Positions 16,810 through 35,816 of a stretch of DNA of 64,000 nucleotides are shown piece by piece. A model generated the notes under the pieces. That model had not been told where the DNA came from. It did not search any database and was given only the letters and a program-made list of their open reading frames with translations. The DNA is from Phanerodontia chrysosporium (Eukaryota > Basidiomycota > Agaricomycetes > Polyporales > Phanerochaetaceae), in NCBI GenBank assembly GCA_001910725.1, contig MJGA01000013.1, forward strand, positions 496,001 to 560,000, in the 5' to 3' direction. Position numbers and translations under genes: made by a program. Position 1 is the first letter of the stretch, and each line of letters begins with the position of its first letter.

Positions 16810-17580
16810 ATGGACGACGTACTTTCAGATGAGACCCTACGCGAGATTCTCTTGAACAACATCGCTTTCTCCCGCGACACCTTCTTTTCATTCGACAGGC
16901 CACCATTCCAGTAACAAGGCGGACCCTCGCCTTGCCTATCTGCTGCTCGTCTCAAGCGATGGCTCCATGTCGGCAGCCCGCTGCTTTTTGAATCCGTTCA
17001 ACTCTCAACCCCAGAGCACGCCTTAGTCCTCGCCGAGCTCTTTCGCGCGCACTCGCATATTGGTCAGGCCGTGCGCTGCCTTCGGCTGGAAGGCGGCTAC
17101 GGGAAGCACCTCGCACATATCGCGAAGCTTGCTACGAAGCTGCACAGCATATACATTGACCTGCAGATCAAGTCTTGCGATAGCATTGCGGGCTGAAGAA
17201 GGCTCTCCCCGTCTTCAATCCCGTGCGTCTGTACATCCAGGAGGCCCAGAAACCCAACAATAATGTCGTGAAGGCTCGTACCCTTGTGTACGCCCACGCC
17301 AGGGACGTCTGGAAGAATGTAGTAAGTAGCAGCACTCTTGATGTATGCAGATGCGCTTACTCATGCGGCTATAACAGCGGATTATGCGTCTGTCGAACAA
17401 TTACTACGACACGATGAACCCACAGGGACTTGGTGCTGTTGCTTCCTGTTCTATGGAAGAGTTAGTCTGCGCCGTGGTCAGATGAGATTCAGACCCGCTG
17501 CTCCGCAGCTGAAGCGGGTAGTGTGTCGAGGTACAACCTTGGAGTCGGGAGTACGACAGATTCTCTCGGAAAATGAGTAG
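16810..17580 (+). pseudogene. Degenerate F-box-like gene copy
   Basis: Begins MDDVLSDETLREILLNNIAF, clearly related to the copy at 9937-10894, but breaks early. An in-frame TAA follows PPFQ near 16912. A base is lost in the LLLVSKRWL segment near 16953 and another near 17188 (GGG CTG became GG CTG before KKALPVFNPVRLYIQEAQ). The readable pieces AVRCLRLEGGYGKHLAHIAK and LKRVVCRGTTLESGVRQIL are close to that relative. Several independent lesions, including a stop, support a true pseudogene that arose from a nearby F-box-like gene. Confidence 0.75.
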
Positions 17581-18427: not shown

Positions 18428-18676
18428 GTTTCAACCAGCAGTGGCGGTATACCGCGACCCTCACCCAGACCCAGACAAGCACGTTTGCGCCCCAAAAAGC
18501 CCCAACACTCTCCAACCGAGACAACACGCAGTATGGCTGTTCAACCAAGGTAGCAAATTGGACTTGACGTGGCTGCAGGCTCACTCTCTGACATGGTTGC
18601 AAGCCCAGCCTACCGGGACGATCGTGTCTGGCCGATGGTGTGGCACGCGAATCGCACATCTACTGCTGTATAAAAG
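18428..18676 (+). promoter_or_regulatory. Conserved promoter of glycine-rich gene L1
   Basis: Module A (18428-18456) reads GTTTCAACCAGCAGTGGCGG then TATACCGC. Module B (18531-18546) is TATGGCTGTTCAA. Module C (18617-18638) is GACGATCGTGTCTGGCCGAT. The TATA box TATAAAAG is at 18669-18676, 158 bases before the ATG. The same modules, in the same order, precede the other three glycine-rich genes. Confidence 0.8.
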
Positions 18677-18826
18677 GCAGAGAGCCGAAGACTCCAACCT
18701 TCACTGCAGGACGCCCCTAGCACTCGTCAAATCTTCGTCCTTCTCGATAGATCTTCGCCCAGCTCAGCTTCTATCATACGCCTTCGCAATTATTTATCCT
18801 CCGACCTCCCCTCTATTTATTGAAAA

Positions 18827-20509
18827 ATGCGGAGCTCCTTCGTAAACTTCGTAATCCTCGCGGCTACCCTTGTCCCCGCCCTTGCCCATCCTGTTGCGCT
18901 GGGTCGCAACGGTGGCCTCGCTAAGAGTGAGTTGCATCTTCATGTGCATGTCATTCCTGTCCTCAACTGTTGTATAGGGCGCAACGCCGACGGCGGTCAC
19001 GTCATCACTGGCAATGGCGGCTTTGGTGGCGACGGCACCGTGTTCGGCAACGGAGGCGACGGCGGCGATGGCGGCGACGCCAAGGGCGGAAATGCCGGCC
19101 ACTCCATCTTTGGTGACGCCAACGGCGGAACCGTGCAAGCCGGCAACGGTGGCGATGGTGGCGACGGCGACAGTGACGACATCCTGCGCCGTTTCTTCAA
19201 CGGCGGAAACGGCGGAAACGGCGGCAATGCCCACGGCGGGAACGGCGGAAACAGTATTCGTGAGTCTTGACTCTCTACAGGGGAATACTTCCACCGTCTA
19301 ACTTGCATTCCTACAGTGGGCAACGTCAACGGCGGTAAGGTAAACGCCGGAAACGGAGGCAATGGTGGCGAAGGCTCCTTCGGCGACGGTGGCGACGGTG
19401 GCGACGGTGGTGACGCTCATGGCGGAAACGGCGGCTTCTCGCCCTTCGGCGACGCCAATGGCGGCACTGTCAACGCCGGTAACGGCGGCGACGGCGGCGA
19501 CGGCGACTTCCGGCGCCGGCGTTTCTTCGATGGTGGTAACGGAGGAAGCGGAGGAAACGCTCATGGTGGCAATGGCGGGCACAGTATCTGTGAGTCTTCG
19601 GTGTTTAGTGAACGCGATGCCTTGCTAACTCGTTTTTCCTCAGTGGGCAACGTCAACGGCGGTAAGGTGAACGCCGGCAACGGAGGCAATGGTGGCGAAG
19701 GCTCCTTCGGCGACGGCGGTGACGGTGGCGATGGCGGCGATGCCCGTGGCGGAAACGGCGGCTCTTCGTTCTTCGGCGACGCCAATGGCGGTACCGTCAA
19801 CGCCGGTGACGGCGGCGACGGCGGCGACAGTGACTTCCGGCGCCGGCGTTTCTTCGACGGTGGTAACGGAGGAAACGGCGGAAACGCTCATGGCGGCAAC
19901 GGCGGGAACAGCATCTGTGAGCTTTTGGTCTCTAGCTGTGAACGCAGTGCCTTGCTCACTCTTGTTTCCCCAGTGGGTAACGTCAACGGTGGCAAGGTGA
20001 ACGCCGGAAACGGAGGCGATGGTGGCGAAGGCTCCTTCTTCAGCGACGGTGGCGACGGTGGCGACGGCGGTAACGCTCGTGGCGGGAACGGCGGCCACTC
20101 GTTCTTCGGCGATGCCAACGGCGGTAATGTCAACGGCGGCGACGGCGGCGACGGTGGCGACAGCGATTTCCGCCGCCGGCGTTTCTTCAACGGCGGTAAC
20201 GGAGGAGATGGTGGCAAGGCGCACGGCGGTAATGGAGGAAACAGCATCCGTAAGTTTCCCTCCTGTATTGCCGACAACTTGCCAAACTGATCACTGTCTG
20301 CACACCCAGTGGGCGACGCCAATGGCGGTAGGGTGAATGGCGGAAACGGAGGCAATGGCGGCGATGACTCCTTCTTCAGCGACGGTGGTGATGGTGGCGA
20401 CGGCGGTGACGCCCATGGCGGAAACGGCGGCCACTCGATCTTCGGAGATGCCAACGGCGGTACTGTCAACGCCGGCGACGGTGGTGACGGTGGCGACGGT
20501 GACTTCTGA
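18827..20509 (+). CDS. Secreted glycine-rich repeat protein L1
   Basis: Function unknown. A signal peptide (MRSSFVNFVILAATLVPALA) is followed by a short pro-region ending at a spliced KRR dibasic site. Then come five repeat units of about 70-90 residues, each dominated by GGDGGDGG, GGNAHGGNGG and FGDANGG blocks. Each unit is one exon. The separating introns (about 50-60 bases, GTGAGT or GTAAGT) all fall after the first base of a codon (SI/L-G), so the exons are symmetric. Units 1-4 hold one Arg cluster (LRRFF, then RRRRFF three times); unit 5 ends at GDGDF and stop. The frame is intact throughout, unlike L2-L4. The composition suggests a flexible extracellular protein processed by a Kex2-like protease, comparable in design to fungal Kex2-processed repeat proteins. 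Paralogues are at 22386, 25603 and 34105. Confidence 0.85.
18978..20509 (+). repeat. Tandem exon repeat array of L1 (five units)
   Basis: Unit starts lie near 18978, 19317, 19645, 19973 and 20310, so the period is about 330-340 bases including one intron. Each unit starts LGNVNGGKVNAGNGG or a variant. Neighbouring units are similar at DNA level in both exon and exon-edge sequence. Confidence 0.85.
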
Positions 20510-21980
20510 GCCATACACTGGCATTTTCCACTGGGAGCTCTTCGAGTTACCGCAGCTGCAGTCTGGGTAGCGACACTGGCAGTATCGAACTCACACTAGG
20601 GACTTGGCAATATTTATAGTATTCAGGCTGGTTCCTGTACAATACTGTGCCAGAGTACAACATCGGCCAGTTCACTCCCATCCCCCAGTCTCGCGATCGA
20701 CCCCTCAAGCAAAGGTTGATCGGTGAGTTGTTTCCCCAACTCGTGCGACCATCCATTCCAGTTCGTGCTGCTTTCAACTTCGCCCGATGCGGGTCCACCG
20801 TCATTCTTCCAGCCGGGAAGCAGCTGTCGACACTCCCTCCCTATGTGACCACATGCCATTGTCGATACACGCCAGCGACGCGCCCGCATATCCATTGATT
20901 TACCCATGTGGTGCGACCTTACAACTCTGCAGCGAGTCGCGAAGTCCTGCGTGGGGGCGGACAAGGTATGTGCCTGGGGCTGTAACCTCGTTGTCGGCAC
21001 TCATCGCATATCCGATAGACTCGGAGAAGACGCATCTTCTCACGGTCGGGCATCCGTCGGTGCCTTTGCAGACGCTTGATCGAGGCCAGTCAAGGCCGAA
21101 AGCCTCCGAATTGTGAGTAGATTATTCCGTACGAGCTCCCTGTCATATTCATCGAGTTAATGTTTGTCGCTGCAGGCGCGGTAGGAAGTGTTCGGCATCA
21201 CGATGCGCCCCGAGGTCACCCTAGGTGAGTACCCACACAATGCCGCGGTGCCCGCCTCGGCTGACGAAGCGCTCCTCCGCTCATTTTGCGCGCTATTGGG
21301 TTTGTCGCTGCAGTGCTCCTCTCTCTGACTGCCTCAACCAGCAAGATGGTGCGTGCACTGTCCATGTGCTCTCTCACACAATCGCTTCTGGTGATAGGCG
21401 GCCTACGAGACCCACGTTGGAGGGCACTCCTGAACTACTAGACACCGCGTTCCACAAACAGGAGGCGTGATCTACAAGGTTTCCCGGTGAGTAGGTGTCA
21501 CGAGTCCACGACTAGAGCCTAGCCTGAGGCTGACGGACCCACTGCGCAGCTACAGGTGGGGCTGCATGTGTTTGTTGAACAGTTGCTGGCCTTCTAACGC
21601 GCACCCAGCAGTTTGAGACGAGGACTTGTGCCTTGACAGGCTATGCACGACGACGCATCGACGTCCAGTGTTACGCTGCAGGTGCGGGAGCGGGCGGCAG
21701 AAGCTATCGGTCCCACGCTGATGCAAGTGGGCCTGGTGAGACCGATGCTGCCCCCGTAGCAGACTAGAGGAGGCCGTCCGCAGACAGCGAGCGCCTGCAG
21801 CTCGCCAGGTCGTCACGTGAGCGCGGCGGGGGGGCGGGACCGCGAGGTGCGTTGGCTCGAGTTGGGTACGACCACATCCGCGAAACAGTTTTTGCCATAG
21901 GAAACACTCAAAGCAGCCCCGGCGATTCACTCGACAAGCAGAACGACGACGTCAATTTATCAAAGAAACAAGCGTCTCGA
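20510..21980 (+). other. Unassigned stretch with intron-like signals
   Basis: Several good donor/acceptor pairs occur: GTGAGTAG (21113) to GCTGCAG (21176), GTGAGTAC (21222) to GCTGCAG (21312), GTGCGTGC (21346) to GATAG (21400), and GTGAGTAG (21487) to GCGCAG (21549). The exons between them are tiny and do not translate into a recognisable family; in-frame stops appear. This may be the remains of an intron-rich gene. Confidence 0.3.
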
Positions 21981-22244
21981 GTTTCAACGAGCAGCGGCGG
22001 TATGCCGCACTCCTCCTCGGTGAAGCACGCACGCGCGTCAGAGGCTCCACAACGCCCTCAGTCTTCACGCCGTACAGGATATGGCTGTTCAAGTAGGTTG
22101 CAGGCCCGGCTTGTCACCGTTGCAGGCGCGTCCCGACCCCGTTGCAGGCCCACTCTGACATCGTCGCGTGTCCAGCCCGCCAGCGCGATCGTGTCTGGCC
22201 GATGGCCATCGCACGAGAATATCCAATCCGCCGCCGCATAAAAG
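21981..22244 (+). promoter_or_regulatory. Conserved promoter of glycine-rich gene L2
   Basis: Module A at 21981-22008 (GTTTCAACGAGCAGCGGCGG then TATGCCGC), module B at 22080-22094 (TATGGCTGTTCAAGT), module C at 22186-22205 (CGATCGTGTCTGGCCGATGG), a CCAAT box at 22223-22227, and a TATA-like CATAAAAG at 22237-22244, which is 149 bases before the ATG. Confidence 0.8.
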
Positions 22245-22385
22245 GCAGCGCGGCCAAGGGCCAGGAACCCCAGCTTCCAGCTCTTGGACGATTACAGCCT
22301 TCACATCTTCGGGCTCTGCACCCCATCTTCCTATCGCCTCTTTTATCGCTATTTATCGTCCACTCCTCCACTTCTCTGATCAAAC

Positions 22386-23817
22386 ATGCGTTTCTCCCTC
22401 GTGAACTTTGTTCTCCTCGCTACCGTTCTCTCTCCCGTCCTCGCATCTCCCGTTCCTAACGTCGGTGCCGGTGAGTTTCTATCTGCGTGTGGACATACAC
22501 CATCTTAACGGTTTGCACCTCCAGGTTACGGCGTCGTCGCTAGTAAGTACCCACACCTCCCGTGCACGGATGCCATCTCACCGCTTCGTCTTGTCAGGGA
22601 GCTCCGTTGTCACTGGTGTCAACGGCAAGGCTGGAGGCAGCGATGGAGGCGACGGCGGCGACGGCGGCAACGCTCACGGCGGCAACGGCGGCATCGGGTT
22701 TTGGGCAACGCCAACGGTGGCACCCTGAACGCCGGCAAGGGAGGCGATGGCGGCGATGGCGACAATGCAAGCGTCGCCGCTCTCCGAGTCCCAGTGGCGG
22801 AAACGGCGGCAAGGGCGGTAATGCGAAAGGAGGGAACGGCGGATTTGGCATCGGTGGGTCTTTCCACTTTGGCACGCGGACTTCGGACGCTGACTAGAAT
22901 TCATCTGCAGGGGGCAACGCCAACGGCGGGAAGTTGAACGCCGGCGATGGTGGAAATGGCGGTCACGGTTCTACTGACAACGGAGGCAGCGACGGCGGCG
23001 ACGGTGGTGACGGCGGTAATGCACACGGTGGCAACGGCGGCATCGGATTTTTGGGCAACGCCAACGGTGGCACCCTGACCGCCGGCAAGGAGGCGATGGC
23101 GGGGATGGCGACAATGGCAAGCGTCGCCGCTCTCCGAGTCCCAGTGGCGGAAACGGCGGCAAGGGCGGTAATGCGAAAGGAGGGAACGGCGGATTTGGCA
23201 TCGGTGGGTCTTTCCACTTTGGCACGCGGACTTCGGACGCTGACTAGAATTCATCTGCAGGGGGCAACGCCAACGGCGGGAAGTTGAACGCCGGCGATGG
23301 TGGAAATGGCGGTCACGGCTCTACCGACAACGGAGGCAGCGACGGCGGCGACGGCGGTGACGGCGGTAATGCACACGGTGGCAACGGCGGCATCGGGTTT
23401 TTGGGCAACGCCAACGGTGGTACTCTGACTGCCGGCAAGGGAGGCGATGGCGGCGATGGCGACAATGGCAAGCGTCGCCGCTCTCCGAGTCCCAGTGGCG
23501 GAAACGGCGGCAAGGGAGGGAATGCGAAAGGCGGGAACGGCGGAATTGGCATCGGTGGGTCCTTTCCCTTCGACATGCGGAATACGGATGCTGACTAGAA
23601 TTCGTCCGCAGGGAGCAGCGCTAACGGCGGACACTTGACCGCCGGCGATGGCGGCAACGGCGGTCACGGCTCCACCCAAAATGGAGGCGGCGACGGCGGC
23701 GACGGTGGCGACGGCGGTAATGCCCACGGCGGCAACGGCGGCCTAGGGTTCTTGGGTAGCGCCAACGGTGGCAACCTGACCGGCGGAAAGGGAGGCGATG
23801 GCGGCGACGACGACTGA
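22386..23817 (+). CDS. Secreted glycine-rich repeat protein L2, frame damaged in first units
   Basis: The signal peptide MRFSLVNFVLLATVLSPVLA is followed by two short exons, GAGYGVVA and GSSVVTGVNGKAGG, then four repeat units. Units contain DGGDGGDGGNAHGGNGG, FLGNANGGTLTAGKGGDGG and the basic site NGKRRRSPSPSGGNGG; the last unit ends GGDGGDDD at a stop. Introns between units are phase 1, as in L1. Unit 1 lacks one T (22699-22702) and one G (about 22767), and unit 2 lacks one G (about 23090), relative to the intact unit 3. So the gene is either a recent pseudogene or carries homopolymer errors. The Arg cluster sits at the same place within the unit as in L1 but is followed by SPSPSGG rather than FF. 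Confidence 0.7.
22740..23600 (+). repeat. Near-identical exon-intron duplications in L2
   Basis: About 210 bases around 22761-22971 recur almost unchanged at about 23110-23320, including the intron. The only clear differences are a missing G and synonymous changes at the far end. The period is about 350 bases. A third, slightly diverged copy follows around 23460-23600. Confidence 0.85.
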
Positions 23818-25218
23818 TCCATAGAGGCCCCCTCGGAATGCTCAGCGGCAGACTCTGGAACAGTATTTATTCAGACTGACTCTAGTAGTCTGAGTCCTTC
23901 ATCTGCGCCCCGTTGTACTTTACCAAAAAACTAGTATCCTCTGTAACCTTCCCATCGTTTGTCAACGCCGGTTCGTTACATCGATTATGTACTATATTTC
24001 AAGAGAATATAGCACATTTGATGGGTATTCTTGAAACGTTGTGCCTCTGGGGATATTGGACAGCGACACTGCAATTCCGGACCCATGAGCATCACAACTC
24101 TCTGGTTGACTTGGAAGAGCTTTGACGCAACACATCTCACCTTCGGATTGTCATCGTTCCCTGCACGCTAGCTATGACATGGCATATCTAGCCTGCAGCC
24201 GGGAAGCCATTGCCGTGACAAGTTGGCCCGCATGGTGTTGTTCGACGCCGATATCAGTTTTTTTTTCATTCTATTTTATTGTATTTTTCGCTGTCTGGTG
24301 GTTGAGATTTTCGAGTTGAATGCACAATGCTAATATTGGAACTTACGCGCTCTAAACAGCTTGCCACCGCCGAGGAAGCCACGCGAGCAAACTTCCCTGC
24401 AGGAACGTGACATGGTGCACATGACCGTTCCTCCGCCTGTCACGCTTGCCCCTCTTGTTTCCCGCTACCATCATGCCGTTCTGCTCTGCGTCGTGTTACA
24501 TAACTAAGATGCCTAAAAGAAAGGAACATAGCCCTTAGGCTTAGCTGTGCAAGTTCTTGCTAAACTTGTCATGTTAAGCCCTGTGAATTACCCCGGAATC
24601 ATGCTAACTCGGGCAGACTCGCCATAGGTTTCTGGGACCTTTTCCTGCCGTTTGTCTTGTGCTTTGCTGATAAATCCCTGAAAGCAGCGTGCAAGCAGGG
24701 GCCCGGGATATATGTACGTCCTATGCTTGTTCTTTCATAGCACACGGTGCTCAGGCGCAGGTCTCTTCAGAGTAGGCAGGCACCGTCCAGCGATTGTGCT
24801 CGACTGCCAAGCAGATCGACGGTTTGCGTTCAGGTCTATGGCGCATTACGCGTTCGGACATCTTGCACAGCGTGTTAGACATCCCTCTTGAGACGTCCCC
24901 CATGCACGCATGCGGGCATGTCATGTCCCAATGAAACAGACCTTGGTTCTGTGCGGGCGCTCGTCACCGGGACGGCCGGGGGCTCGTCCACTGCAGTCGA
25001 CAAGGCCGACAGTTTGCCTGCGAGGGTGTGCACGCATTGTCCAGAGGTAAGTCATCAAGTGGCTATGGTGGGACGCGGTACAGCGATCTGACGGCTGTCT
25101 ACGGCTTCTGCGAAACAGGCGTTAACGTACGAGCAGGTTCGAAAATCATCGCCATTTTCCCGGGCGAACCCACTGCTATGAGCATTGGCGCATGCCCGCG
25201 AGAGAAACAATCATTCCC
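23818..25218. other. Intergenic, nothing recognised
   Basis: Contains the 3' region of L2 and AT-richer sequence with a T run near 24260. No coding pattern, RNA gene or repeat could be supported. Confidence 0.4.
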
Positions 25219-25453
25219 AGTTTCAAGCTAGCAGTGGCGGTATACCGAAATTCCCAGCTAGCCCGTACCAGAAGCACCACGACGCTGTCTGTGCCAAGAC
25301 AGAACGCGGTATGGCTGTCCAAGGAAAGCCGCAGGATCATCTAGATCGTGTTGCACGATGATTTTGACTTTGCTGCTCACATAGCCTGCCAGAACGATTT
25401 CGCCTGGCAAATGACGCCGCACCAGAAAGAGCAACTTGCAGGCGGTATAAAAG
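25219..25453 (+). promoter_or_regulatory. Conserved promoter of glycine-rich gene L3
   Basis: Module A at 25219-25246 (AGTTTCAAGCTAGCAGTGGC then GGTATACCG), module B at 25310-25324 (TATGGCTGTCCAAGG), a weaker module C at 25393-25407 (AACGATTTCGCCTGG), and TATAAAAG at 25446-25453, 157 bases before the ATG. The 5' untranslated region shares CAGGACGCCCCT (near 25488) with L1 (near 18710). Confidence 0.75.
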
Positions 25454-25602
25454 AGGCTACTGCGCGGTCCTTCTGACCCAGGACGCCCCTGGCATTCTTC
25501 AAACCTCCGCGACTTACATCTCTTGTTCGCCCTCTTGGACTTCAATTGCTTCCATCGGTCGCAATCATCTTTATACACCACTCCCCCTTCCCAAGTAAAA
25601 AT

Positions 25603-26751
25603 ATGCGCAACTCCTTTGTGAGCCTCGTCACGCTCGCGGCCTTCCTGGCCCCTGCTCTCGCAAGCCCGATTGCCTCTGGCGGCGAGGGAGGCAACAGCGG
25701 ATCCCTTGGTCCGCGCTTCTTCATCGGTGAGCCACCTCTACCGTGCGCATACACCGCCACTTCCAACCTCACACGCCCCTACAGGGACCGTCGCCAACGG
25801 CCGCGTTGTTGGCCAGGACGGCGGCATCGGTTTCGGTACGTCCTCATCGACGCGCATACATTTGCCTGTCCCTAAAGCTCCTTTCAGGCAATGAGGACGG
25901 CCAGAGCGTGCGCACGGGGCCGGGCCAGACCGCCGTCGGCGGGCGCGGCGGCGTCTCGGTGGGCGGCGGCACCGCGAACGGCGGCAACGCGATCGCCGGG
26001 CCGGGCGGGACGGCCGTCGCTGGGAACGGCGGCTTCTCGTCCTCGGGCTCCGCCAGGGACGGCGACGCGATCGTCCTCGGCGCGCGGTTCTTCGACGGCG
26101 GAGACGGCGGCGACGGCGGGAACGCGGTCGGCGGGAACGGCGGCCAAGCGAACGGCGGCTTCGGGTTCGGCGGCTTCACGTTCGGTAAGTCCTCAGCCCC
26201 GGAGTGGGCGCAGCATCTGTTGTCCTCCCCCTTGCTGACCCCGCATCGTCTAGGTGGCGGTGGCAGCGCGAACGGCGGGCGTGTCGATGGCGGAGACGGC
26301 GGCGATGGTGGCGATAGCGTCCACAGCTCCTTCTTCGGCGGCGGAACCGACGGAGGCGATGGCGGCGACGGCGGGAACGCAAACGGCGGGAACGGCGGCT
26401 TCGCGTCCTTCGGCAATGCCAACGGCGGCATCGTGAACGGCGGGGACGGCGGGACGGGGCGACAGCCGCGTCCTGCGCCGAGGCTTCCTCGTAGGTGTGC
26501 GTTCCACAGACGCGTGAGCTCCGCGTTCTCACGCCTTCTGTTTTTTGCGCGTGCAGGGACCATCGCCGATGGCGCAGGCGTGAGCAACGGCAGAGGCGGC
26601 GTGGCGGGCAGGTGGCAACGCCAAGGGGGGAAATGCTGGTACCGTGTTTGGAGCTGGAGCCACCGCCGCCGCTGGCCATGTCACGGCGGGCGGCGGTGGC
26701 GAGGGTGGCTTCTTGCGCCGGCATTTTCTCAAAGCAGGACTCTTCGAATAG
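25603..26751 (+). CDS. Secreted glycine-rich repeat protein L3, frame disturbed near end
   Basis: The signal peptide MRNSFVSLVTLAAFLAPALA leads into GGEGGNSGSLGPRFF. Short exons follow, then a long exon reading GGTANGGNAIAGPGG, NGGFSSSGSARDGD and GARFFDGGDGGDGGNAVGG. After an intron (GTAAGTCC...TCTAG, about 26185-26254) comes GGGSANGGRVDGGDGGDGG and GGNANGGNGGFASFG. Near 26458 one extra base displaces DSRVLRRGFL, the position matching LRRFF in L1. Near 26609 a second shift displaces GGNAKGGNAGTVFGAG. The last frame ends GEGGFLRRHFLKAGLFE and TAG at 26751. The most divergent of the four paralogues, with more Ala and Ser. Confidence 0.7.
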
Positions 26752-27290
26752 CCGTGTCAGCAGACTCTAAATTGTACTAACAGGATGAAAAGCAGAATAT
26801 GTGCGTACTGTCGTGATCAGTGTAAGCTACCAACGAGGTTCCTTCACATTATTTTCCGAGACACATGATATTGCGGTGTTGATAGGCTACACTTGTCCAG
26901 AGACAATGCGAAAGTAAAGGGAGCGTATGCAACTGAATTGCTCACAAGAACGTGGAAGCTTGCCTGAACATGTCCGCATCAGACTGGTGGACGGCACGCA
27001 TGTACTTTCAATATCTTGCGAAGGTTTACTCCCTGCGACGCTCCATTATTTCACTCCACTTTCAGTAATTTGCTTACCAGTCAGCCCCACTTATTTACTA
27101 CTGCTTAATACGTAAGCGCCTCCGTAAGATATCAGATCTTACCCTCCTTACAAATGTGCTTATCGTGTTTGTTAGCCGCTAAGAAACGATGATGATCGAC
27201 CGCACTCTCCACTTACCATCATCTTGTCAGACAGTGGTGGAAGAGCAGGTGCTATTGGCTGAAGACCGTGTGACAAAATCACGCAGCAAG
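26752..27290. other. Intergenic, nothing recognised
   Basis: Lies between L3 and the plus-strand alpha/beta-hydrolase. An upstream in-frame ATG for the hydrolase exists at 27189, but the paralogue's length supports the start at 27291. Confidence 0.4.
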
Positions 27291-28723
27291 ATGCCAGGTA
27301 GTAAGGCGACTGAATCCGCTGTCAAGCGTAGTCTGCTCCAGCGGATTTATGGGTCGTTCTTCTACGTCGGCCTCTTGTATCCGGTGCTCATTGCAGTCCT
27401 GGCTAGTCCGGCCGTGCAGAGACAGTGAGCTAAGTTCAATCCTCGTATATGCACGACTAATTCGTCATTTTCTAGTGCCACGTTCCAACACGCCCTCAAG
27501 TTTCCATTTTTTGTGGAGTATGACACCCCAGAAAAGTACAGCCTCGCTCGTAAGTCCACGACACAAGAACATGATGGTGCGCTAACAACTTGTTCTAACA
27601 GCCGGAAAGACCCTGAACACGCACTTCAGCACACCAGACAACTGCACGCTCGGCGCGTGGTTTGTCCTTGCAGACCCATACTACCAGACATTGCGATCTA
27701 CAGCGCCTCGAGGCTCTCACCCTGGGACGAGTCCACCGTGCTCGACGCCATCCATACGCACCCGACGATCCTCTTTCTGCACGGCGCGGGCGGCACGCGC
27801 GCAGGGTCAGCCCGCGTCGAAGCGGTGCGCGCGTTCTCGTCGCGGCTGCACGCGAACGTCTTCGCCATCGACTACCGCGGCTTCGGCGACAGCTCCGGCA
27901 CACCGAGCGCGTCCGGGCTCGCGCTCGACGCATACACGGCGTGGAGCTGGCTCCTCGAGCGCGGCGCGGCCCCTGAGGACATCGTCATCGTCGGCGAGAG
28001 CCTCGGCACGGGCGTCGGCGGGCAGCTCGCGCGCCGCCTTGCCGCCGAGGGCGTCCGCCCGCGCGGCGTCGCGCTCCTCGCGCCGTTCTCGAGCGTCAGC
28101 AGGCTCGTCGAGTCGTATGCGCTTTTCGGCATCCCGCTGCTGCAGCCGCTGCAGAGCTTCGCGTGGGGCGTCAGTGAGTGCCCCCAGTGCTGTACCGCAC
28201 GAACGTGCGCGCTGACACGCCGTCGGCAGAGCTCCTGAAGCGCATCGTCCGCGTCGAGTTCAACACGCTTGAGGCCGTCGTGGACTTCAACGCGCCGACT
28301 CTCATCGCGCACGCGCAGGACGACATGGAGATCCCGCACGCGCACTCCCGGACGCTCATCGACGCGCTGCTCGAGCCGCTGCTGCCCGCAGCCTCCGTCC
28401 AGCTTCCCAGTGCGCCCGGCAAGACACTCACGACGGAGGAGTTCCTTGCGTTCCGCAAGCAGCAGGAGGAGCGCAGCGCACGGCGTGGCGAAATCGTGAA
28501 AAAGACGGAGGTCCCGACGTTCGGCGTCATCGAGGAATTCAGGGGCGTCCGCGCGCCGGTCGTGTACGTTGAGACGTTCTGGGGCTCGCACGCAATGATC
28601 GGCGCGCAAGAGGGGGTGCAGGACGAGATGGCGAAGCTCTTTGGGCTCGGAGCGTACCGTGCTCAGTTCAAGCGCGACGACGAGTCAGTCGTGGACCGTA
28701 TCCTGCACCACCTAGTGGACTGA
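27291..28723 (+). CDS. Alpha/beta-hydrolase, ABHD12-like, copy 1
   Basis: Serine hydrolase with an N-terminal membrane anchor (FFYVGLLYPVLIAVLASP). Introns near 27429-27475, 27556-27600 and 28174-28230 separate the exons. Motifs: TILFLHGAGGTR (oxyanion region), ANVFAIDYRGFGDSSG, VIVGESLGTGVGGQL (nucleophile Ser in GESLG), the acid region TLIAHAQDDMEIPH and a late VYVETFWGSHAMI (catalytic His). Known ABHD12-type enzymes hydrolyse lysophospholipids or monoacylglycerol at membranes; the substrate here is inferred only by family. At 27720-27724 one base seems lost between TAPRGSHP and WDESTVLDAI compared with copy 2. Copy 2 (30139-31542) lies inverted on the other side of a dehydrogenase gene. 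Confidence 0.8.
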
Positions 28724-28897
28724 ACGACGGGTACCTTGTTGAATGCTCACTGCCTGAACATCTGATCGAAATATTTGTTTATAATACAGCGACGTCCTTT
28801 CTCCCCATGCAACTCAGCCTCTGCCAACAAACGGCATGGTAGTCGCCCTGGAACGCAGTTCGACATCAGCAGCCAAACCTCGGAGGCACATGAACAC

Positions 28898-29836
28898 TCA
28901 CAGGATGTTGAAGTTGAGCACCGTCACGTCCAGCGGCAGGCTCGCGATGTGCACGATGGTGTCCGCGACGTGCTGCACGTCGAACGTGCCCTCGGGCTTG
29001 ATGCTGCCGTCAGGCTGGAGCGCGCCGGTCTGGTGTCCGCGGCCATGTCTGTGTGCGCGTTCCCGATGTCGACCTGTGTGCAGGTGATGTTGAAGGCGCG
29101 CCCGTCGAGCGCTGTGGCGCGCGTGAGGCCGAGGACGGCGTGCTTCGTCGCGGTGTACCCCGCCGCGTGCAGCCGCGGAGAGTGCGCGGCGATGGAGCCG
29201 TTGTTGATGATGCGGCCTAACGGGGCAGCATGATCTCAAATTGCACTACCGGGATGGGGCGGGAACGCACCGCCAGTAGGATATTGGTTCTTGAAGACCT
29301 TCATCGCCTCCCTCGTGCAGAGGAATGTGCCAATCAAGTTGACGTTCACGACGTTCTGAAACGTCGCAAGCGAGATCTCGTCTAAGGGTGCAGCCGGATG
29401 GGAGACTCCAGCGTTCTGCAAGGGCATGTCTAAGAAACTGAAGTCTGCAGGAGAGCGAGCGAACCCACGTTGAATAGGAGGTCCAGCCGACCTGCAAGCC
29501 TGTCATCACTCTGCTTTATTCCACTGGTCTCGCACACGTACCGAAACGTTGCAGGGTAGCCTGGAAGAGCTCCCTGACACTTTCTTCGTTCGTGACGTCG
29601 CCCGTAATCACCAGCACTTTGTCGGGGTGCGGACATTGTGCCTGTGTCTGCCGCAGCTCGTCTGCACGGCGCGCAAACAGCGTGAGGGACCATCCTGCCC
29701 TCGCGAGAGCAATCGCGGTGGCCTTTCCGATACCTGTAGTTGAAGCGAGGGTCGCGGACGATTCGTGTCATAGGAGCTAGATAAAAGTACCGGAGGAGGC
29801 TCCTGTGACAATCGCGACTTTCAGTTCTGCAGCCAT
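28898..29836 (-). CDS. Short-chain dehydrogenase/reductase (SDR)
   Basis: NAD(P)-dependent oxidoreductase. [26 protein letters not shown] gives the Rossmann TGxxxGIG motif across an intron. [17 protein letters not shown] gives NNAG after splicing GTGGGTTC...[23 protein letters not shown] supplies the catalytic Ser region and [15 protein letters not shown] the YxxxK pair. The C-terminus is [14 protein letters not shown]. All catalytic residues are present. Near 29037-29043 one base is missing between HTDMAA and [12 protein letters not shown]. Substrate unknown. It sits between two inverted hydrolase paralogues and is transcribed toward the plus-strand copy; a joint pathway cannot be claimed. 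Confidence 0.8.
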
Positions 29837-30138
29837 CTTTTGTTGTCTCCGTTCGAGAGCCTGTGATAGAGACGTATGTTAAGTTATCAGGTCGCCCCTG
29901 CAAGATGTATGTGAGTGTTAGGTTGAGAACAGCTTGCACACTGCGACGGTGAGAGCTACGACTCGCAATTCCCGAGGAACTGGTTCCGCTCGGTCCATCG
30001 GGCCGGAAGCGCCGGCCGTGGACGCAAATGAACCACAATTTCAGGCCCAAGTCAAGGTAAAGGGCATGGATAAAGCATAGAGAGTGCATGTACAACATTG
30101 AAACCTGCTCTAATGACTCAGCTGACGCAGTGCCTGAC

Positions 30139-31542
30139 CTACGAGTCGCCGGCTTCATGACGATACATACCCAGACGGAAGAGCCGCGCCATCTCGTCCT
30201 GCACGCCCTCCTGCAAGCCGATGCGGGCGTGCGCACCCCAGAACGTCTCAACATACACGACGGGCGCGCGAAGGCCCTTGAACTCCTCGACGGTGCCGAA
30301 ACTAGGTATCTCCGTCGTCTTGACGATCGCGCCGCGCCGTGCGCCGTGCTCTTCCTGCTGCTTGCGGAGCGCGAGCAGCTCTTCGGGCGCAAGACTCGCT
30401 TCTGCATCCGGGGACGCCGCAGCGGCGAGGCGGGGCAGCAGCGGCGCGAGCAGTGCATCGATGAGCGTCTGGGAGTGCGCATGCGGGATCACTTCGTCGG
30501 CCTGCGAGTGCGCGATGAGCGTCGGGGCGTGGAAGCCTTCGATCGCCGCCAGCGTGTCAAACTCGTGGCGCACGAGGTACTTCATAAGTCCTATGGCGGC
30601 AGTCTCAGCGGGATCACGACGCGCGAAGCCAGACGAAAGGCTCACGAATGCCCCAGGACGACATCTGCAGCGGGCGCAGGATCGGGACGTGCAGGATGGC
30701 GTAGGTCTCGATGAGCCTGCTCATCGTCGTAAACGGAGCGAGCAGCGCCACGCCACGTGGGACAACATCCTCCGCCGCGAGCTGCCGCATGAGCTGTCCC
30801 GCGACGCCGGTGCCGAGGCTGTACCCGACGACGACGACGTCGCTGGGTTCCGCACCGCGCGCGACGAGCCAGCGCCACGCGGTGTATGCGTCGAGTGCCA
30901 GGCCCTCCGTGTCGGGGCTGCCGGTGCTGTCGCCGAAGCCGCGGTAGTCGATCGCGAGGACGTTCGCCTGCAGACGCGCGGCGAACGCGCGATATGACCC
31001 GACCCTCCAGACAGACGCTCGTGTGGCACCCGCACCGTGCAGGAAGAGGACCGTGGGGTGCTTGGATATGGCATCGCGCACGATGTCCTCGGTGAGCGGC
31101 GGCGCGCGCTGCTCCGGGGACGAGACCCTCAGTCCTTGGTAGAAGGGATCGGCGAGCACGAACCAAGCACCGAGCGTGCAGTTGTCCGGGGTTGAGAAGT
31201 GCAGATTCAGCGTTTTGCCAGCTATATGCGTCTTCGCGTGAATATGACGGGTTTCTCATTGTATAATGTGTGCTTACGTGCCAGGCCGTACTTCTCGGGT
31301 ACGTCGAAGTTCGCAAATAGCGGAAACTTGAGGCCGTGCTTGAACACGGCACTGGAGAAACGGTGCGTAAAAACGAGATACAAGCCAACTGCTGCTTACT
31401 GTTTCTGGATGGACGGGATAGCGAGAAGCCCTATGACCACTGGATACAGCAGCCCTAGGTAGAGCAGTGACCTGACGATGCGTTGAGAAAGGCCTTTCTT
31501 CGGCTGCTTCTCCGATGATTTCGAATGTGTTCCTTGAGCCAT
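30139..31542 (-). CDS. Alpha/beta-hydrolase, ABHD12-like, copy 2
   Basis: Starts MAQGTHSKSSEKQPKKGLSQ with the membrane helix SLLYLGLLYPVVIGLLAIP. Introns match copy 1 in position: after SIQKQ (GTAAGCAG), after KYGLA (GTAAGCAC) and after MSSWGI. Motifs: TVLFLHGAGATR, ANVLAIDYRGFGDSTG, VVVGYSLGTGVAGQL (nucleophile Ser in GYSLG), TLIAHSQADEVIPH and VYVETFWGAHARI. The frame is intact to a stop at 30139. Likely a membrane-associated lipase or lysophospholipase by family. It shares close sequence and intron positions with copy 1, indicating a local inverted duplication. Confidence 0.87.
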
Positions 31543-32001
31543 TCCACAGTACGGCTATCCCAGATGCTGGTACTACTCGGCAGCGGCCTAAGCCGCGTTG
31601 TGAAGGCGAGAGAAAGAGATGAGTTGCAAGATCAATGAGGCTGTTGAGCCGCTACTATAGACGCTAATATTGAGACGCCTAATAAGTAAGTAGATTATTA
31701 TTGACAGGTAAGTGAGACCGAGTAAGCTTGAGTCGAACCGATTAATAACTGTACCCCTGGCACAGAATCGAATAGTGTATCCAGCTTCCAGGACGTTGTA
31801 AAGAAGAAACTTGCTACGTAGCCAAATTAAAGCGTTGTAAATGTGAGAAAGAGACATGTCTGCATAATGTGTTCCAAGTGCTTTGAATCCCGGTCCGCCT
31901 GCAAGCTTGACGTTGGCGTAGTGATACGCCTTGTGGCAGTGTCAATCAGGTCCGAATCCAGCGGAACGTAGGTAGATACGTGTCAAAGTATTCGGGAAAG
32001 T
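31543..32001. other. Intergenic, AT-richer, nothing recognised
   Basis: Upstream of the minus-strand hydrolase copy 2 and the 3' end of an F-box-like gene. No motif was supported. Confidence 0.4.
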
Positions 32002-32986
32002 CTAGTCCCAATCTTCATCGGAGTCATCTGAAAGGACCATTCTGCGGAACAGCTTCAATCCGCCTATCCGTTGTTGCAATCAGACTCGGAGACACTCACT
32101 GGAGGAAGTCATCGCGCCATCCAGGTACGAAGCTGAACCTCCGGACTTCTTCGGCAGGGACTTGTTTCTCCTGGAAGAGCTTCTGTATTGTAAATTTACT
32201 CTTATTTCCTCTGCACTCAATGCGCTTCAACCACGGGCTTCTGAGGATCTTGTGGATTGTTCCGTCCTCGATCCAGTGTACAACATCACAGGCGTCGGAG
32301 GAAAATTCCTCTACAGACGATCTGGCAATGGCGTCTGCCAGTCCTCGTGTTAACATGAGGCTGGAAAATTCAGATAGGGATACTGATTTCTAGGAGGGGG
32401 CGAAAGCGTGCTGTAAGAATATGGCTAACACCCAGAGCCCTCGTGTACGGACCAGTGATATCCAGTTCCTGTGGATACAGCTATGCAAGATCGACCGTGC
32501 CTCGGAAATCTTCTTGTTGTCGCGATGGGTCTCCTCTTGTATGTACAGGGCTGAAGGCTGGAGCAGCGGCAGTGCCTTCTTCAGACCGGTGACACTGTGG
32601 GACGATTTGATTTTTAGGCTGAAGTAAATGGTGTGTACCTTGGGAATAAATTTTGTGACGCGCGCGAGGTCCTTCCCGAGCCCTCCTTCGAGCCTGAGGC
32701 AACGTACACAGAGGCCGAGGAATGGATGCGTGCGGAAGAACTCGGCGACGGTGGTGGTGTGCTCTGGAGTGCGTAGCTGCAGGCATTCGTAGAGCAGCGG
32801 TGTGCCAATACGGAGCCAGCGTTTCGAGACGAGCAACAGGTGGCCGTTGCGGTCCCTCTCCGACTCGCGGTCGTCAGGTTGCATTCCGAAAGGCCGCCTG
32901 TAGGCGACAAAGTCTGCGTACTTGACCGAGATGTTGTGCGAGAGCACCTCGCGGAGGAGCTCCTCGGGGAAAAGCCTGTCTATCAT
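32002..32986 (-). CDS. F-box-like protein, intact
   Basis: MIDRLFPEELLREVLSHNIS is the F-box-like start. HLLLVSKRWLRIGTPLLYEC and leucine-rich stretches (CVRCLRLEGGLGKDLARVTK, IPKVHTIYFSLKIKS, LKKALPLLQPSALYIQEE) follow. Exon 2 contains LADAIARSSVEEFSSDACDV and WLKRIECRG. A last intron (GTGAGTGT...CCGCAG, about 32100-32041) joins FLQ to MVLSDDSDEDWD and the stop at 32002. No frame damage is visible, so this is the best reference for the family here. Probably a substrate adaptor of a Cullin-type ubiquitin ligase; target unknown. Confidence 0.8.
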
Positions 32987-33395
32987 CGTCGTCGAAGCAG
33001 GAACAAGAGACGCGAGACGAGAGCCTCGGGCTGGGAGTTTGCCTGTGACAAAAGTAAGAGCGATCACGTGCCGCGTGACCTTCGCGTTTCCGCGTTTTTG
33101 GCCGGCGCGCACGCATGGCTACGGGCATGTCCAAAAAAAATTGGGAAAGCCGGATCTCAAGTCAGCCTAAGTAGTTCATCTTGTGATCCCGTTTCTCTCT
33201 GAAAACTCTATGAAGATCACGGTTGCCTCCAATGCTAACAGACAGGAAAGACATAGCACACGCCGCTATTTTTCTGCAGAACAGCTAGTGATAAATATAG
33301 TCTCGTACCGCCAGGGTAAGAGTTCAAACGTTCAAATCCTACACTGATAGCACTGCTAGTGTGTCGGTCACGGCACCTAGTGAAAGAGCTCTCCC
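32987..33395. other. Intergenic between F-box-like gene and L4 3' end
   Basis: No coding or RNA signal was supported. Confidence 0.4.
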
Positions 33396-34105
33396 TCAGA
33401 AGAAAGAGAAGCGGCTGTCTCCGCCGTCGCCACCGTCGCCGCCAGTCACGAAGCCACCATTGGCGCTGCCACGGAACGCATTGCCGCCGTTTCCGCCTAT
33501 GGCGTTACCACCGTCGCCACCGTCACCTCCATCGCTGGAGAAGGAGCCACGACCGCCGTCACCGCCGTCACCGCCATTCACACGTCCGCCGTTGGCGTTG
33601 CCGACTAGAGGCGCAAGGCGTCAGCAGCGGAAAGGAGCCGCAAATGCAGGGGCACGACTCACAAACCGCATGGCCACCGTTCCCGCCGACGGCATTGCCG
33701 CCATCGCCCCATCGCCGCCGTCTCCGTGGAAGAAACGCCGACGCAGGAAGCCATTGTCGCTCCCATCGCCGCCGTCACCGCCGTCGCCTCCGGTCACGAA
33801 ACCGCCGTTGGCGCTGCCATGGAACGCACTGCCGCCGTTTCCGCCGATGGCGTTACCGCCGTCTCCGCCATCGCCTCCGTCGCCGCCGAACCCGCCGAAC
33901 CCGCCGTGCACGCTATGGCCGTTAGTGTTCCCTGGGCACGCTGCCACGTTAGACAGGGTGCAGACAAGGACAAGAACAAAACCTCACCAAACCCGAAAGC
34001 GCCATTTCCGCCCGTGATGTCGCTTCCCTTGCTGCCAGCTGGGCGAGCAAGAACCGGGGCGAGGGAGGCCGCAAGGATAACAAAGTTCAGAAAAGCGCAG
34101 CGCAT
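33396..34105 (-). CDS. Secreted glycine-rich repeat protein L4
   Basis: The signal peptide MRCAFLNFVILAASLAPVLA is followed by RPAGSKGSDITGGNGAFGFG. An intron (GTGAGGTT...GCCCAG) leads to GNTNGHSVHGGFGGFGGDGG, GGNAIGGNGGSAFHGSANGG, FVTGGDGGDGGDGSDNG and the basic site FLRRRFFHGDGG. A second intron leads to GRVNGGDGGDGGRGSFSSDG and the end DGGDSRFSFF. Near 33709 one base is missing in a G run compared with the expected GGDGG pattern. L4 has two repeat units, fewer than L1. Its promoter shares all modules with L1-L3, but in inverted orientation and about 7 kb away from L3. Confidence 0.8.
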
Positions 34106-34257
34106 GTCGGGCTAGACTAAGGATGATTCGCAACATCAGTACACCTGAACCTGTGGAGAGGTAATTAAACGAACACAGGTAGCAGAATGTGGAGGTGTTG
34201 AGAATGCTTGAAGGGTCTACAAATGTGGATGGTGCTCCTGGTTTTCGAGCCTCCTGG

Positions 34258-34470
34258 CTTTTATGAAGCGACGGATTGGTTATACTCGCGCCACGCCATC
34301 GACAAAACGCGATCGTCCTGGGCTGCAACCATGTCACGGAAAGTCTGAAGTATGCCTTGGACAGCCATTGCAAGTCCTCTCAAGGCACAGGGAGTGCAAT
34401 GGTGCTTCTGACGCGGGCACGGCTTCACTGAGTGAGCGTCGCGCGCATACCGCCATGGCTAGTTGAAACT
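34258..34470 (-). promoter_or_regulatory. Conserved promoter of glycine-rich gene L4
   Basis: On the minus strand: module A at 34470-34443 (AGTTTCAACTAGCCATGGCG then GTATGCGC), module B at 34370-34355 (CAATGGCTGTCCAAGG), module C at 34320-34297 (CAGGACGATCGCGTTTTGTC then GATG), CCAAT at 34279-34275, and TATA-like CATAAAAG at 34265-34258, 160 bases before the ATG. Confidence 0.8.
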
Positions 34471-34859: not shown

Positions 34860-35424
34860 GCCGGGGCGTCCCAAGTTCAAGATCTGCTTCTGAAGCAGGG
34901 ACGTGCCCATCCTGAGCTGAGGCTCTAGGTCTTACGCCAGGCCTCAGGGACATTCCACACCGCACCCGGCAGGCGACCCATACTGGACGACATGCAGAGT
35001 GGTAGGTAGGCTTGAACAATGAGAACGCCTTCTTGAGACCTGCAATGCTGTGCGCAGACTTGATCTTCAGGCTGAAGAGTACGACGGCCGGCTTTGGCGT
35101 GAACTTTGCGACGTGCATAAGATCCATGCCGAACCCGCCCTCGAGCCGAAGGCAGCACACGCTCAGTCCGACGAGCAGGTGCGTGCGGAAGAGATTGGCG
35201 ACGCCGGCGGTCTGTTGTTGCGTGTGCAGCTGCAGGCATTTGTACAGCAATGGCGTGCCAACGCGGGGCCAACATTTCGAGACCAGCAGCAGCTGGCTGT
35301 TGCGGTCTAGAGACTTGGAACTGTGGTGGTCGGACCGAACGTGGGCAAGGAGTTCTGTGTGCTAAATTGAGATGTTGTACCAGAGGATCTCCCAGAGGAT
35401 CTCCTCGGGCAACACGCTGTCCAT
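34860..35424 (-). pseudogene. F-box-like gene copy with early stop
   Basis: Starts MDSVLPEEILWEILWYNISI, but an in-frame TAG follows immediately. Afterwards it reads QLLLVSKCWPRVGTPLLYKC, CCLRLEGGFGMDLMHVAKFT and HSIAGLKKAFSLFKP before the pattern is lost. The W in KCWPR and other changes depart from the family consensus. It is closest to the intact copy at 32002-32986. Upstream of its start lies the BOR1-type transporter on the opposite strand. Confidence 0.7.
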
Positions 35425-35816
35425 CGTCGCGCTGGAAGAATTGGGAGACCGCGAGACTCTCAACCCGGGAATCCTACCTCGAATCTGAGAAACTTATTAT
35501 GTGGAGTAGAAAGAAAGAAAAAGGGCTACCTCTGCGCAACTTTGCCCGGCCCTAGACTCATATGCTATGCGCAAGCCGGGCTACACACAATCGTGACCTA
35601 ATGGAGAACGGTCCCCTGCCCACGTGACCCATGCAGCCGTCGTCGGCATTTCCCGATAAGAGTTGACCCGCCCCGCATGCCGACGCCCAGCACCCTCACC
35701 GCCGAAAATGTTCCCAGCCCTTTTCTCGTCCGCCCCTCCACGACGACGACGGCCTCGCCGCCCCTTCACGATCTCTCTTGCATGGCCTAATAGATCAAGA
35801 ATACCCTAATTTCACG
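35425..35816 (+). other. Upstream region of SLC4 transporter
   Basis: Divergent region between the F-box pseudogene and the transporter. A pyrimidine-rich stretch precedes the start codon; no TATA box is evident. Confidence 0.4.

Follow-up and report, generated by a model that had tools for sequence, protein, structure and literature searches.

A shared, ordered promoter array in a small family of duplicated glycine-rich genes of Phanerodontia chrysosporium, probably maintained by purifying selection

Upstream of four glycine-rich genes of Phanerodontia chrysosporium, L1 to L4, three short sequence modules (A, B and C) are found in the same order and are followed by a TATA box, all within a window of 64,000 nucleotides (assembly GCA_001910725.1, contig MJGA01000013.1, positions 496,001 to 560,000). 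A fifth paralogue, C64, which lies on another contig and outside of this window, carries the same array, i.e., the ordered elements are present upstream of five of five close paralogues (with C loose in L3). These promoters share ancestry. It is quite likely, judging from the comparisons below, that what has been retained is an ancestral promoter whose transcription-factor sites have been preserved by purifying selection across a small family of secreted proteins. Duplicated gene families can keep conserved cis-regulatory modules in their promoters.

The array was initially described, for L1 to L4, in a sequence-only reading of the window, and every element which that reading had named could be located. 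These elements, along with two CCAAT boxes, are as follows.

18428..18455, plus strand: module A of L1, GTTTCAAC..AGCAGTGGCGGTATACCGC, which includes the palindrome GCGGTATACCGC (CGG-N4-CCG)
18533..18544, plus strand: module B of L1, ATGGCTGTTCAA
18619..18638, plus strand: module C of L1, CGATCGTGTCTGGCCGATGG
18670..18676, plus strand: TATA box of L1, ATAAAAG, 157 bases upstream of the ATG
21981..22008, plus strand: module A of L2, GTTTCAACGAGCAGCGGCGGTATGCCGC
22081..22092, plus strand: module B of L2
22186..22205, plus strand: module C of L2
22223..22227, plus strand: CCAAT box of L2, between C and TATA, with counterparts at the corresponding place in L4 and C64
22238..22244, plus strand: TATA box of L2, ATAAAAG
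25220..25248, plus strand: module A of L3, with one extra base and ending in TATACCGA
25311..25322, plus strand: module B of L3, ATGGCTGTCCAA
25395..25414, plus strand: module C of L3, degraded, CGATTTCGCCTGGCAAATGA
25447..25453, plus strand: TATA box of L3
34442..34469, minus strand: module A of L4, with a changed right half-site, TATGCGCG
34357..34368, minus strand: module B of L4
34296..34315, minus strand: module C of L4, CGATCGCGTTTTGTCGATGG
34275..34279, minus strand: CCAAT box of L4
34258..34264, minus strand: TATA box of L4

Module A starts at 18428, 21981, 25220 and, on the minus strand, 34469 (here and below, in the order L1, L2, L3, L4). Relative to the ATG, module B (ATGGCTGTYCAA) is found at -294, -305, -292 and -263, module C at -208, -200, -208 and -210, and the TATA box (ATAAAAG) at -157, -148, -156 and -159. 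The last are one base short of the distances originally given (158, 149, 157 and 160), an offset which comes from counting from the A of the ATG. Counted from the first base of GTTTCA, ATAAAAG lies 242, 257, 227 and 205 bases away, the earlier estimate having been about 207 to 256, and module C of L3 is indeed degraded, having been described as weak. The layout had been called almost fixed, which holds for the order of elements in all four genes and for the C-to-TATA distance (51, 52, 52 and 51 bases, and 52 in C64) but not for B-to-C, which over the five genes ranges from 40 to 105 bases, with A-to-B at 75 to 90. The C-to-TATA stretch, because it is short, would be expected to have gained few indels anyway.

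Individual copies vary. Module A ends in TATACCG in L1 and L3 only, with TATGCCG in L2 and TATGCGC in L4, and module B of L1 is interrupted (TTCAACCAAGG). The CGG triplets of module A are inverted in four of five copies, i.e., as CGG-N4-CCG in L1, L2 and L3 and as CGG-N5-CCG, a dyad with a 5-base gap, in C64; the right CGG half-site has been lost from L4. CCAAT upstream of TATA, the criterion for a CCAAT-box (Hap complex) promoter, is seen in three of the five promoters (L2, L4 and C64), starting 15 bases before ATAAAAG or ATAAGAG, and none is found on either strand at the corresponding place in L1 or L3.

The genes that these promoters precede, along with two neighboring hydrolase genes, are these.

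18827..20509, plus strand: L1, as predicted from the DNA in our own model; 467 residues, 39% glycine
22386..23817, plus strand: L2, a glycine-rich repeat protein whose glycine-rich frame shifts within exons as assembled
25603..26751, plus strand: L3, glycine-rich, its glycine-rich frame changing toward the 3' end through either a shift or an intron
33396..34105, minus strand: L4, glycine-rich, the shortest member, its glycine-rich frame shifting as assembled
27291..28660, plus strand: H1, an alpha/beta hydrolase adjoining L3, ATG to end of aligned stretch
30160..31542, minus strand: H2, an alpha/beta hydrolase between L3 and L4, an inverted duplicate of H1, taken from its ATG to where the aligned stretch stops

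The L1 model consists of a leader exon and five repeat-unit exons, with all five introns in phase 1 and the frame unbroken. As the glycine-rich frame is shifted in L2, L4, perhaps L3, and, as assembled, also in C64, some copies of the family could be decaying. The N-terminus is hydrophobic in all four of the L1 to L4 models, as read from translations, and the products of the five genes probably are secreted. A large protein database returned one weak match, 50% identical across 2% of the query, no Pfam family was found for the repeat unit, nor for the L1 leader exon, and no solved structure resembling the product was found (best E 0.33). AlphaFold2, as applied to one repeat unit, gave a mean pLDDT of 41.1, which is too low for judging a polyglycine-helix fold.

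When 500 bases upstream of L1 to L4 are aligned locally, a comparison close to the 450-base one which the sequence-only reading had proposed, the six pairs score 125 to 188 against shuffle maxima of 32 to 40 (60 shuffles per pair). That similarity is unevenly spread. Over the ten pairs formed by the five genes, modules are 72 to 93% identical with 0 to 2 gap columns, versus 49 to 62% and 18 to 76 gap columns for the sequence between them, and 43 of 71 ungapped columns are invariant in modules versus 14 of 94 outside. The modules are conserved above background. The intervening DNA had been described as unrelated, and this is too strong, as the spacers are partly homologous: With C64 included, the A-B spacer lies at least 2 SD above shuffles in ten of ten pairs, B-C in six and C-TATA in eight. 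Nor is shared spacing by itself proof of selection since, as the sequence-only reading did not weigh, the layout is inherited via duplication. What argues instead for selected regulatory sites is that the modules are far more conserved than spacers and signal-peptide fourfold sites, that the promoters have outlived those of H1 and H2, and that the array recurs in C64.

The modules originally were picked for their conservation in L1 to L4, leaving C64 as the sole independent copy. In this held-out comparison, from which columns gapped in C64 (11 and 32) are omitted, C64 agrees at 89 of 119 columns invariant in L1 to L4, the mean for other columns being 114 of 247. All of this conservation is among paralogues within one genome. 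By promoter alignment against shuffles, the array is absent from two remoter glycine-rich genes, C69a and C102. For the upstream regions of C69a, C102 and C69b versus those of the family, 14 of 15 scores do not exceed the shuffle maximum, the exception being L2 with C69a (35 versus 34). C69b is counted here only as a leader-like ATG near C69a.

Might the modules simply be residue from duplication, that is, chance survivors of too little elapsed time? Upstream homology does extend beyond the array, to about -590 between L1 and L2, with -700 to -450 still similar among the four window copies (z of 2.9 to 18.8 in six pairs), and to this can be added the weak similarity persisting in spacers. Sites that should be closer to neutral, however, have mostly lost their resemblance. 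Divergence at fourfold sites of the signal peptides is close to saturated (35 of 94 identical, these being few sites over ten non-independent pairs), first introns of L1 to L4 are barely or not alignable (z of 0.0 to 3.4 in six pairs), the 500 bases downstream of these genes are not alignable (z of -0.4 to 2.7 in six pairs), and the region from -1500 to -1000 gives z below 2 in nine of ten. H1 and H2, next door, are an inverted pair and still 70% identical, yet their 450-base promoters cannot be aligned (z -0.2), versus a z of 40 for the L3 and L4 promoters. The L3/L4 similarity is concentrated in the A-B part, with the final 250 bases before the ATG scoring 28 (z 2.0), under the shuffle maximum of 34, and TATA-to-ATG giving z 0.7. 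Invariant columns also are clustered: Whether the window is 6, 10 or 15 columns wide, the variance of their counts is above that of all 2000 column permutations, and the largest count per window has p of 0.005, <0.0005 and 0.03 for 8, 12 and 20 columns. Mere duplication residue, already disfavored, accordingly is improbable. Homogenization of promoters by gene conversion (concerted evolution), without selection on sites, is somewhat more improbable still. The tandem placement of L1 to L3 would suit it, as would the 20 identical bases that L1 and L2 share at module C, but with L1 and L2 only 51% identical outside of modules (31 gap columns), tracts would have to be about module-sized (12 to 28 bases) and fall on the same spots in five genes, one of them on another contig. 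Furthermore, the promoter tree is star-like (supports of 26 and 42), with neither a clear grouping nor a resolved duplication order.

Two other explanations accept the conservation but differ over what is conserved or how it arrived. The stretches could serve another role, e.g., as a short upstream transcript or in nucleosome positioning, a suggestion to which the lack of a match between any module and a characterized site lends something; a site directly 5' of TATA, a short palindrome in A and loose A-B-C spacing nevertheless suit binding sites, and this role seems only a slim prospect, about on par with duplication residue. Delivery of module B, or of the entire array, by a mobile element is the least credible. 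It is true that 42 of the 46 B-pattern matches are TATGGCTGTGCAAGG, which differs from that pattern by one mismatch, and that 34 of these 42 sites form 17 pairs with about 7.8 kb between members, an arrangement such as long terminal repeats have. The region around the site in one such copy (L001), though, scores 26 to 34 against the five promoters, no better than the promoter-comparison shuffle maxima of 31 to 41, and by simple arithmetic about three one-mismatch B sites are expected by chance in 39 Mb.

Would modules also turn up at random places genome-wide? Single, loosely defined modules do, which was the outcome that the sequence-only reading had said would count against shared regulation, but the ordered A-B-C-TATA array is found, within the pattern used, only at the five family promoters. 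That is, one exact gapped A-then-B pattern, with one gap range, has eight matches in the whole genome, of which five are the family promoters (reversed control, three), and downstream of the other three neither TATA nor C was found, the C pattern employed there being loose and derived from the family genes themselves. The A core with up to two mismatches has 286 sites versus 297 in the reversed control, and a longer A pattern with up to three mismatches has eight places, including L1, L2 and L4, versus seven. Module C with up to three mismatches has 57 sites versus 41, with four exact matches, all from the family (out of which the pattern was built), none at one mismatch and two at two. A search for A near TATA had also been proposed. 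Among 30 of the 286 A-core sites, TATA lies downstream in four, B in four and both in three (L1, L2 and L3). One of those 30 sites is the reverse reading of the palindrome in L1. A gapped B-C-TATA pattern, whose gap limits and letters exclude four of the five known copies, matched L4 alone and is uninformative. When the L1 promoter was used as query in a DNA similarity search, L1 and L2 were the only loci recovered. As a marker of some wider regulon, loose single modules were rejected as non-discriminating, with counts little or no higher than in reversed controls.

Under the preferred reading, of sites kept by purifying selection, L1 to L4 and C64 would have come from one ancestral gene by duplication, the promoter being carried with each copy, i.e., in tandem for L1 to L3, perhaps by inversion together with a hydrolase for L3 and L4, and by dispersal for C64. 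Neutral DNA would largely have decayed since, with A, B, C and TATA retained by purifying selection. The modules most likely would bind sequence-specific activators. A zinc-cluster (Zn2Cys6) dimer possibly recognizes CGG-N4-CCG in A, B perhaps is a site with loose spacing, and C, 51 to 52 bases before TATA and followed by CCAAT in three of five promoters, may be bound by a factor acting in a fixed register relative to the core promoter. Binding at the modules, the kinds of factors and co-expression of the five genes all are things that we infer from sequence.

Seen against duplicated-family promoters generally, these too are homologous, with short conserved islands, TATA, sometimes CCAAT, and diverged spacers. 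They differ in that A, B and C fit no nameable site and in that the ordered array was found at just these five genes, all of one family. White-rot lignin-modifying peroxidase genes have TATA plus CCAAT promoters (PMC11561020), to which TATA in all five family genes and CCAAT in three may be likened. A, B and C are not among the elements described in the portion of that source drawn upon. The family TATA is 148 to 169 bases from the ATG versus 51 to 84 in peroxidase table rows from the same portion, a difference that cannot be judged as the table lists boxes within 100 bases only. Zn2Cys6 sites, as described in the relevant part of PMC5559640, are paired CGG triplets, inverted, direct or everted, and module A resembles these in its inverted triplets in L1, L2 and L3 (N4) and C64 (N5). 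L4, on the other hand, is without the right triplet, and conservation of A reaches well past the triplets.

Kex2-processed repeat proteins (KEPs; PMC7329392, PMC9769878, PMC6339444, each in part) provide a further comparison. These are defined, in the portion of PMC7329392 used, by an ER signal peptide, cleavage at dibasic sites, and at least three tandem repeats of at least 8 residues, none over 100, between KR, KK, RK or RR. L1, with basic runs at residues 33, 104, 193, 284 and 376, is similar in its hydrophobic N-terminal leader, its tandem repeats, and an RR run in each of units one to four, at intervals of 89, 91 and 92 residues. It is different in that repeats are about 90 residues, one per exon, in a 39% glycine protein. 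Judged from basic-run positions, L1 alone has the repeat arrangement so defined; the L3 and L4 models have one basic run each, and L2, given its frame shifts, was left out. A bolder and rather doubtful proposal is that the array is a dedicated ‘grammar’ of a lineage-specific secreted family, with its own factors and a rigid C-TATA register, and that Kex2 cuts at RR in each repeat so as to yield co-expressed, secreted glycine-rich fragments under one switch.

To our knowledge, few regulatory sites have been defined in such fungi. Here the paralogues of one genome serve as natural replicates which delimit three candidate sites with nearly single-base precision, and the H1/H2 pair provides an internal control for how far an ordinary promoter can decay alongside. 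If the array does mark a co-expressed family, then it could readily serve as a reporter of the stage of glycine-rich secreted protein production.

Upstream of all four glycine-rich genes of the window (L1 to L4), the regions as read and aligned hold modules A, B and C followed by a TATA box, in the order proposed by the sequence-only reading, and the distances it gave are reproduced with differences of at most one or two bases.

L1: ATG at 18827, plus strand
L2: ATG at 22386, plus strand
L3: ATG at 25603, plus strand
L4: ATG at 34105, minus strand

That the layout is fixed, however, holds for one interval. With a fifth paralogue (C64, on another contig) included, C-to-TATA spacing is 51-52 bases in all five promoters, while A-B (75-90 bases), B-C (40-105) and TATA-ATG (148-169) vary; the rigid part of the array, that is, is the piece adjoining the core promoter. 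Nor is the DNA between modules unrelated, as had been supposed, with spacers retaining above-shuffle similarity in 10/10 (A-B), 6/10 (B-C) and 8/10 (C-TATA) pairs. Conserved pieces beyond the three modules, absent from the earlier list, also exist. Among them is CAGAAG-NN-CCAC-N-ACGC between A and B, clearest in L3 and C64; in L2, L4 and C64, moreover, a CCAAT box starts 15 bases upstream of the TATA element. Module C is degraded in L3.

The assembly searched spans 39.0 Mb; the window is part of C33, one of its 145 contigs. Short introns, LTR-like repeats and the kinds of gene present would suit a filamentous fungus. An A core followed by a B core 62-92 bases further on has eight exact matches genome-wide, versus three for the same pattern reversed. 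Five of the eight are L1 to L4 and C64, each followed by C (by a loose pattern derived from those five) and a TATA box; neither follows A and B at the remaining three. In loose single-module searches A is no commoner than its reversed control and C only somewhat commoner. Random occurrence of the modules had been named as telling against shared regulation; by exact patterns the full array stands at the five family promoters only, and no wider gene set carrying it was found genome-wide by such patterns. A sequence one base off the module B pattern, TATGGCTGTGCAAGG, occurs 42 times in the genome (including loci L001-L005 and L008), with 34 of these forming 17 pairs approximately 7.8 kb apart, i.e., long-terminal-repeat-like; the one copy compared (L001) gave no sign of kinship with the family promoters.

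Protein search with L1 residues 1-218 also finds glycine-rich relatives outside the window, at C64, C69 and C102, and a 95-residue piece of C64, as second query, returns the same places and nothing additional. The C64 gene start, MRGSLVNFFILAATL, resembles those of L1 to L4, and its upstream region aligns with theirs at local scores of 115-154 against shuffle maxima of 35-38 (60 shuffles). Its promoter elements lie as follows, relative to the ATG:

-365: module A
-261: module B
-221: module C
-169: TATA box

Upstream regions of the remoter relatives C69a and C102 match the five promoters at shuffle level, as does that of C69b, a leader-like start codon close to C69a whose product may or may not be glycine-rich, 14 of 15 scores being no higher than their own shuffle maximum and the remaining one, L2-C69a, reaching 35 versus 34. 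As the five upstream regions align with one another and these do not, the array is, judging from such alignments, a property of a five-gene subfamily rather than of all glycine-rich genes. Both C69a (contig C69) and C102 (loci L040, L041) have hydrophobic leaders and lack the shared promoter.

From -450 to -160 all ten promoter pairs align at z 15.7-37.0 (score versus shuffled sequences), and the five promoters are, on this comparison, homologous; given that homology upstream of the ATG, the common layout is inherited. Similarity fades outward: from -700 to -450, z is 2.9-18.8 in the six pairs of L1 to L4 and 2.0 or less in the four pairs involving C64, from -1000 to -700 it is 3.0 at most, and beyond -1000 it is mostly lost, excepting one of ten pairs (L3-L4, z 4.5). 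It is uneven from -160 to the ATG (z 0.9-15.1), and over the 500 bases downstream of L1 to L4 z is -0.4 to 2.7. Within the A-to-TATA core, identity in all ten pairs is 72-93% across the modules (0-2 gap columns) versus 49-62% across the non-module part (18-76 gap columns), and invariant columns number 43/71 in modules and 14/94 outside (ungapped columns only). Because modules were chosen from L1 to L4, C64 is a fair held-out test; it retains 89/119 columns invariant in those four, versus a mean match of 114/247 at remaining columns (C64 gap columns excluded in both). The duplications appear old by the clock of fourfold sites and introns, i.e., 35/94 identical signal-peptide fourfold sites over ten pairs and first introns that are barely or not alignable (z 0.0-3.4, six pairs, L1 to L4 only), and the promoter tree is almost star-shaped. 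The idea of selected sites thus stands as regards modules conserved beyond their spacers and matched in C64, but not as regards the common layout by itself; among these five paralogues from one genome, descent and selection both appear to act.

An internal control is provided by two genes situated between L3 and L4, both alpha/beta hydrolases by Pfam:

H1: 27291-28660, plus strand, alpha/beta hydrolase, inverted pair with H2
H2: 30160-31542, minus strand, alpha/beta hydrolase, inverted pair with H1

These are 70% identical over 1336 aligned columns, and L3-H1 mirrors L4-H2, with additional sequence separating L4 from H2, an arrangement suggesting one inverted segmental duplication as the likely origin. 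Over 450 upstream bases H1 and H2 cannot be aligned with each other (z -0.2), whereas L3 and L4 reach z 40.3. If there was a single duplication event, then an ordinary promoter would have vanished while that of L3/L4 survived. L3/L4 similarity lies, though, in the A-B region, and the weak score over the 250 bases nearest the ATG (28, z 2.0, under the shuffle maximum of 34) advises against too simple a reading of this control. In and around the cluster are also three related stretches (17001-17244, 32533-33018 and 35008-35457; 65-68% identical), which may be copies or relics of a single gene.

As to products, L1 as modelled by our own scoring (18827-20509) consists of a leader exon plus five repeat exons. 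All five introns are phase 1, so one exon is one repeat unit and units can be added with the frame intact. Identity to the reference unit is 58-92% for seven other units or part-units, which come from L1, L2, L4 and C64. AlphaFold2 modelled one repeat unit at low confidence (mean pLDDT 41.1), too low to give a fold. The L1 protein is 39% glycine, and its RR runs, possibly Kex2 sites, are spaced 89, 91 and 92 residues:

Residues 104, 193, 284 and 376 (within 18978-20249): RR runs of the first four L1 repeat units, RRRRFF in three

L1 nominally fits, by its modelled sequence, a published screen for Kex2-processed repeat proteins (PMC7329392), which the models of L3 and L4 fail to fit. The glycine-rich frame shifts, as assembled, in L2 (22386-23817), L4 (33396-34105), C64 (L039) and perhaps L3 (25603-26751). 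These shifts are either sequencing errors or real decay, and decay would weaken the case that the genes form a functional set expressed together.

Regarding what might bind, the A core, GGCGG(C)TATRC, is present in all five promoters, with CGG-N4-CCG in three copies and CGG-N5-CCG in C64, L4 being without the right triplet. As paired CGG triplets are described in PMC5559640 as typical zinc-cluster protein targets, it is a fair guess, rather than a result, that such a protein would bind A. Module B has no nameable match to a site. A Pleurotus ostreatus table (PMC11561020) lists only boxes within 100 bases of the ATG, versus TATA at 148-169 here, but with that limit leader lengths are not comparable. 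The fixed register of C with TATA, lastly, suggests that C would be the site of a factor contacting the core promoter machinery.
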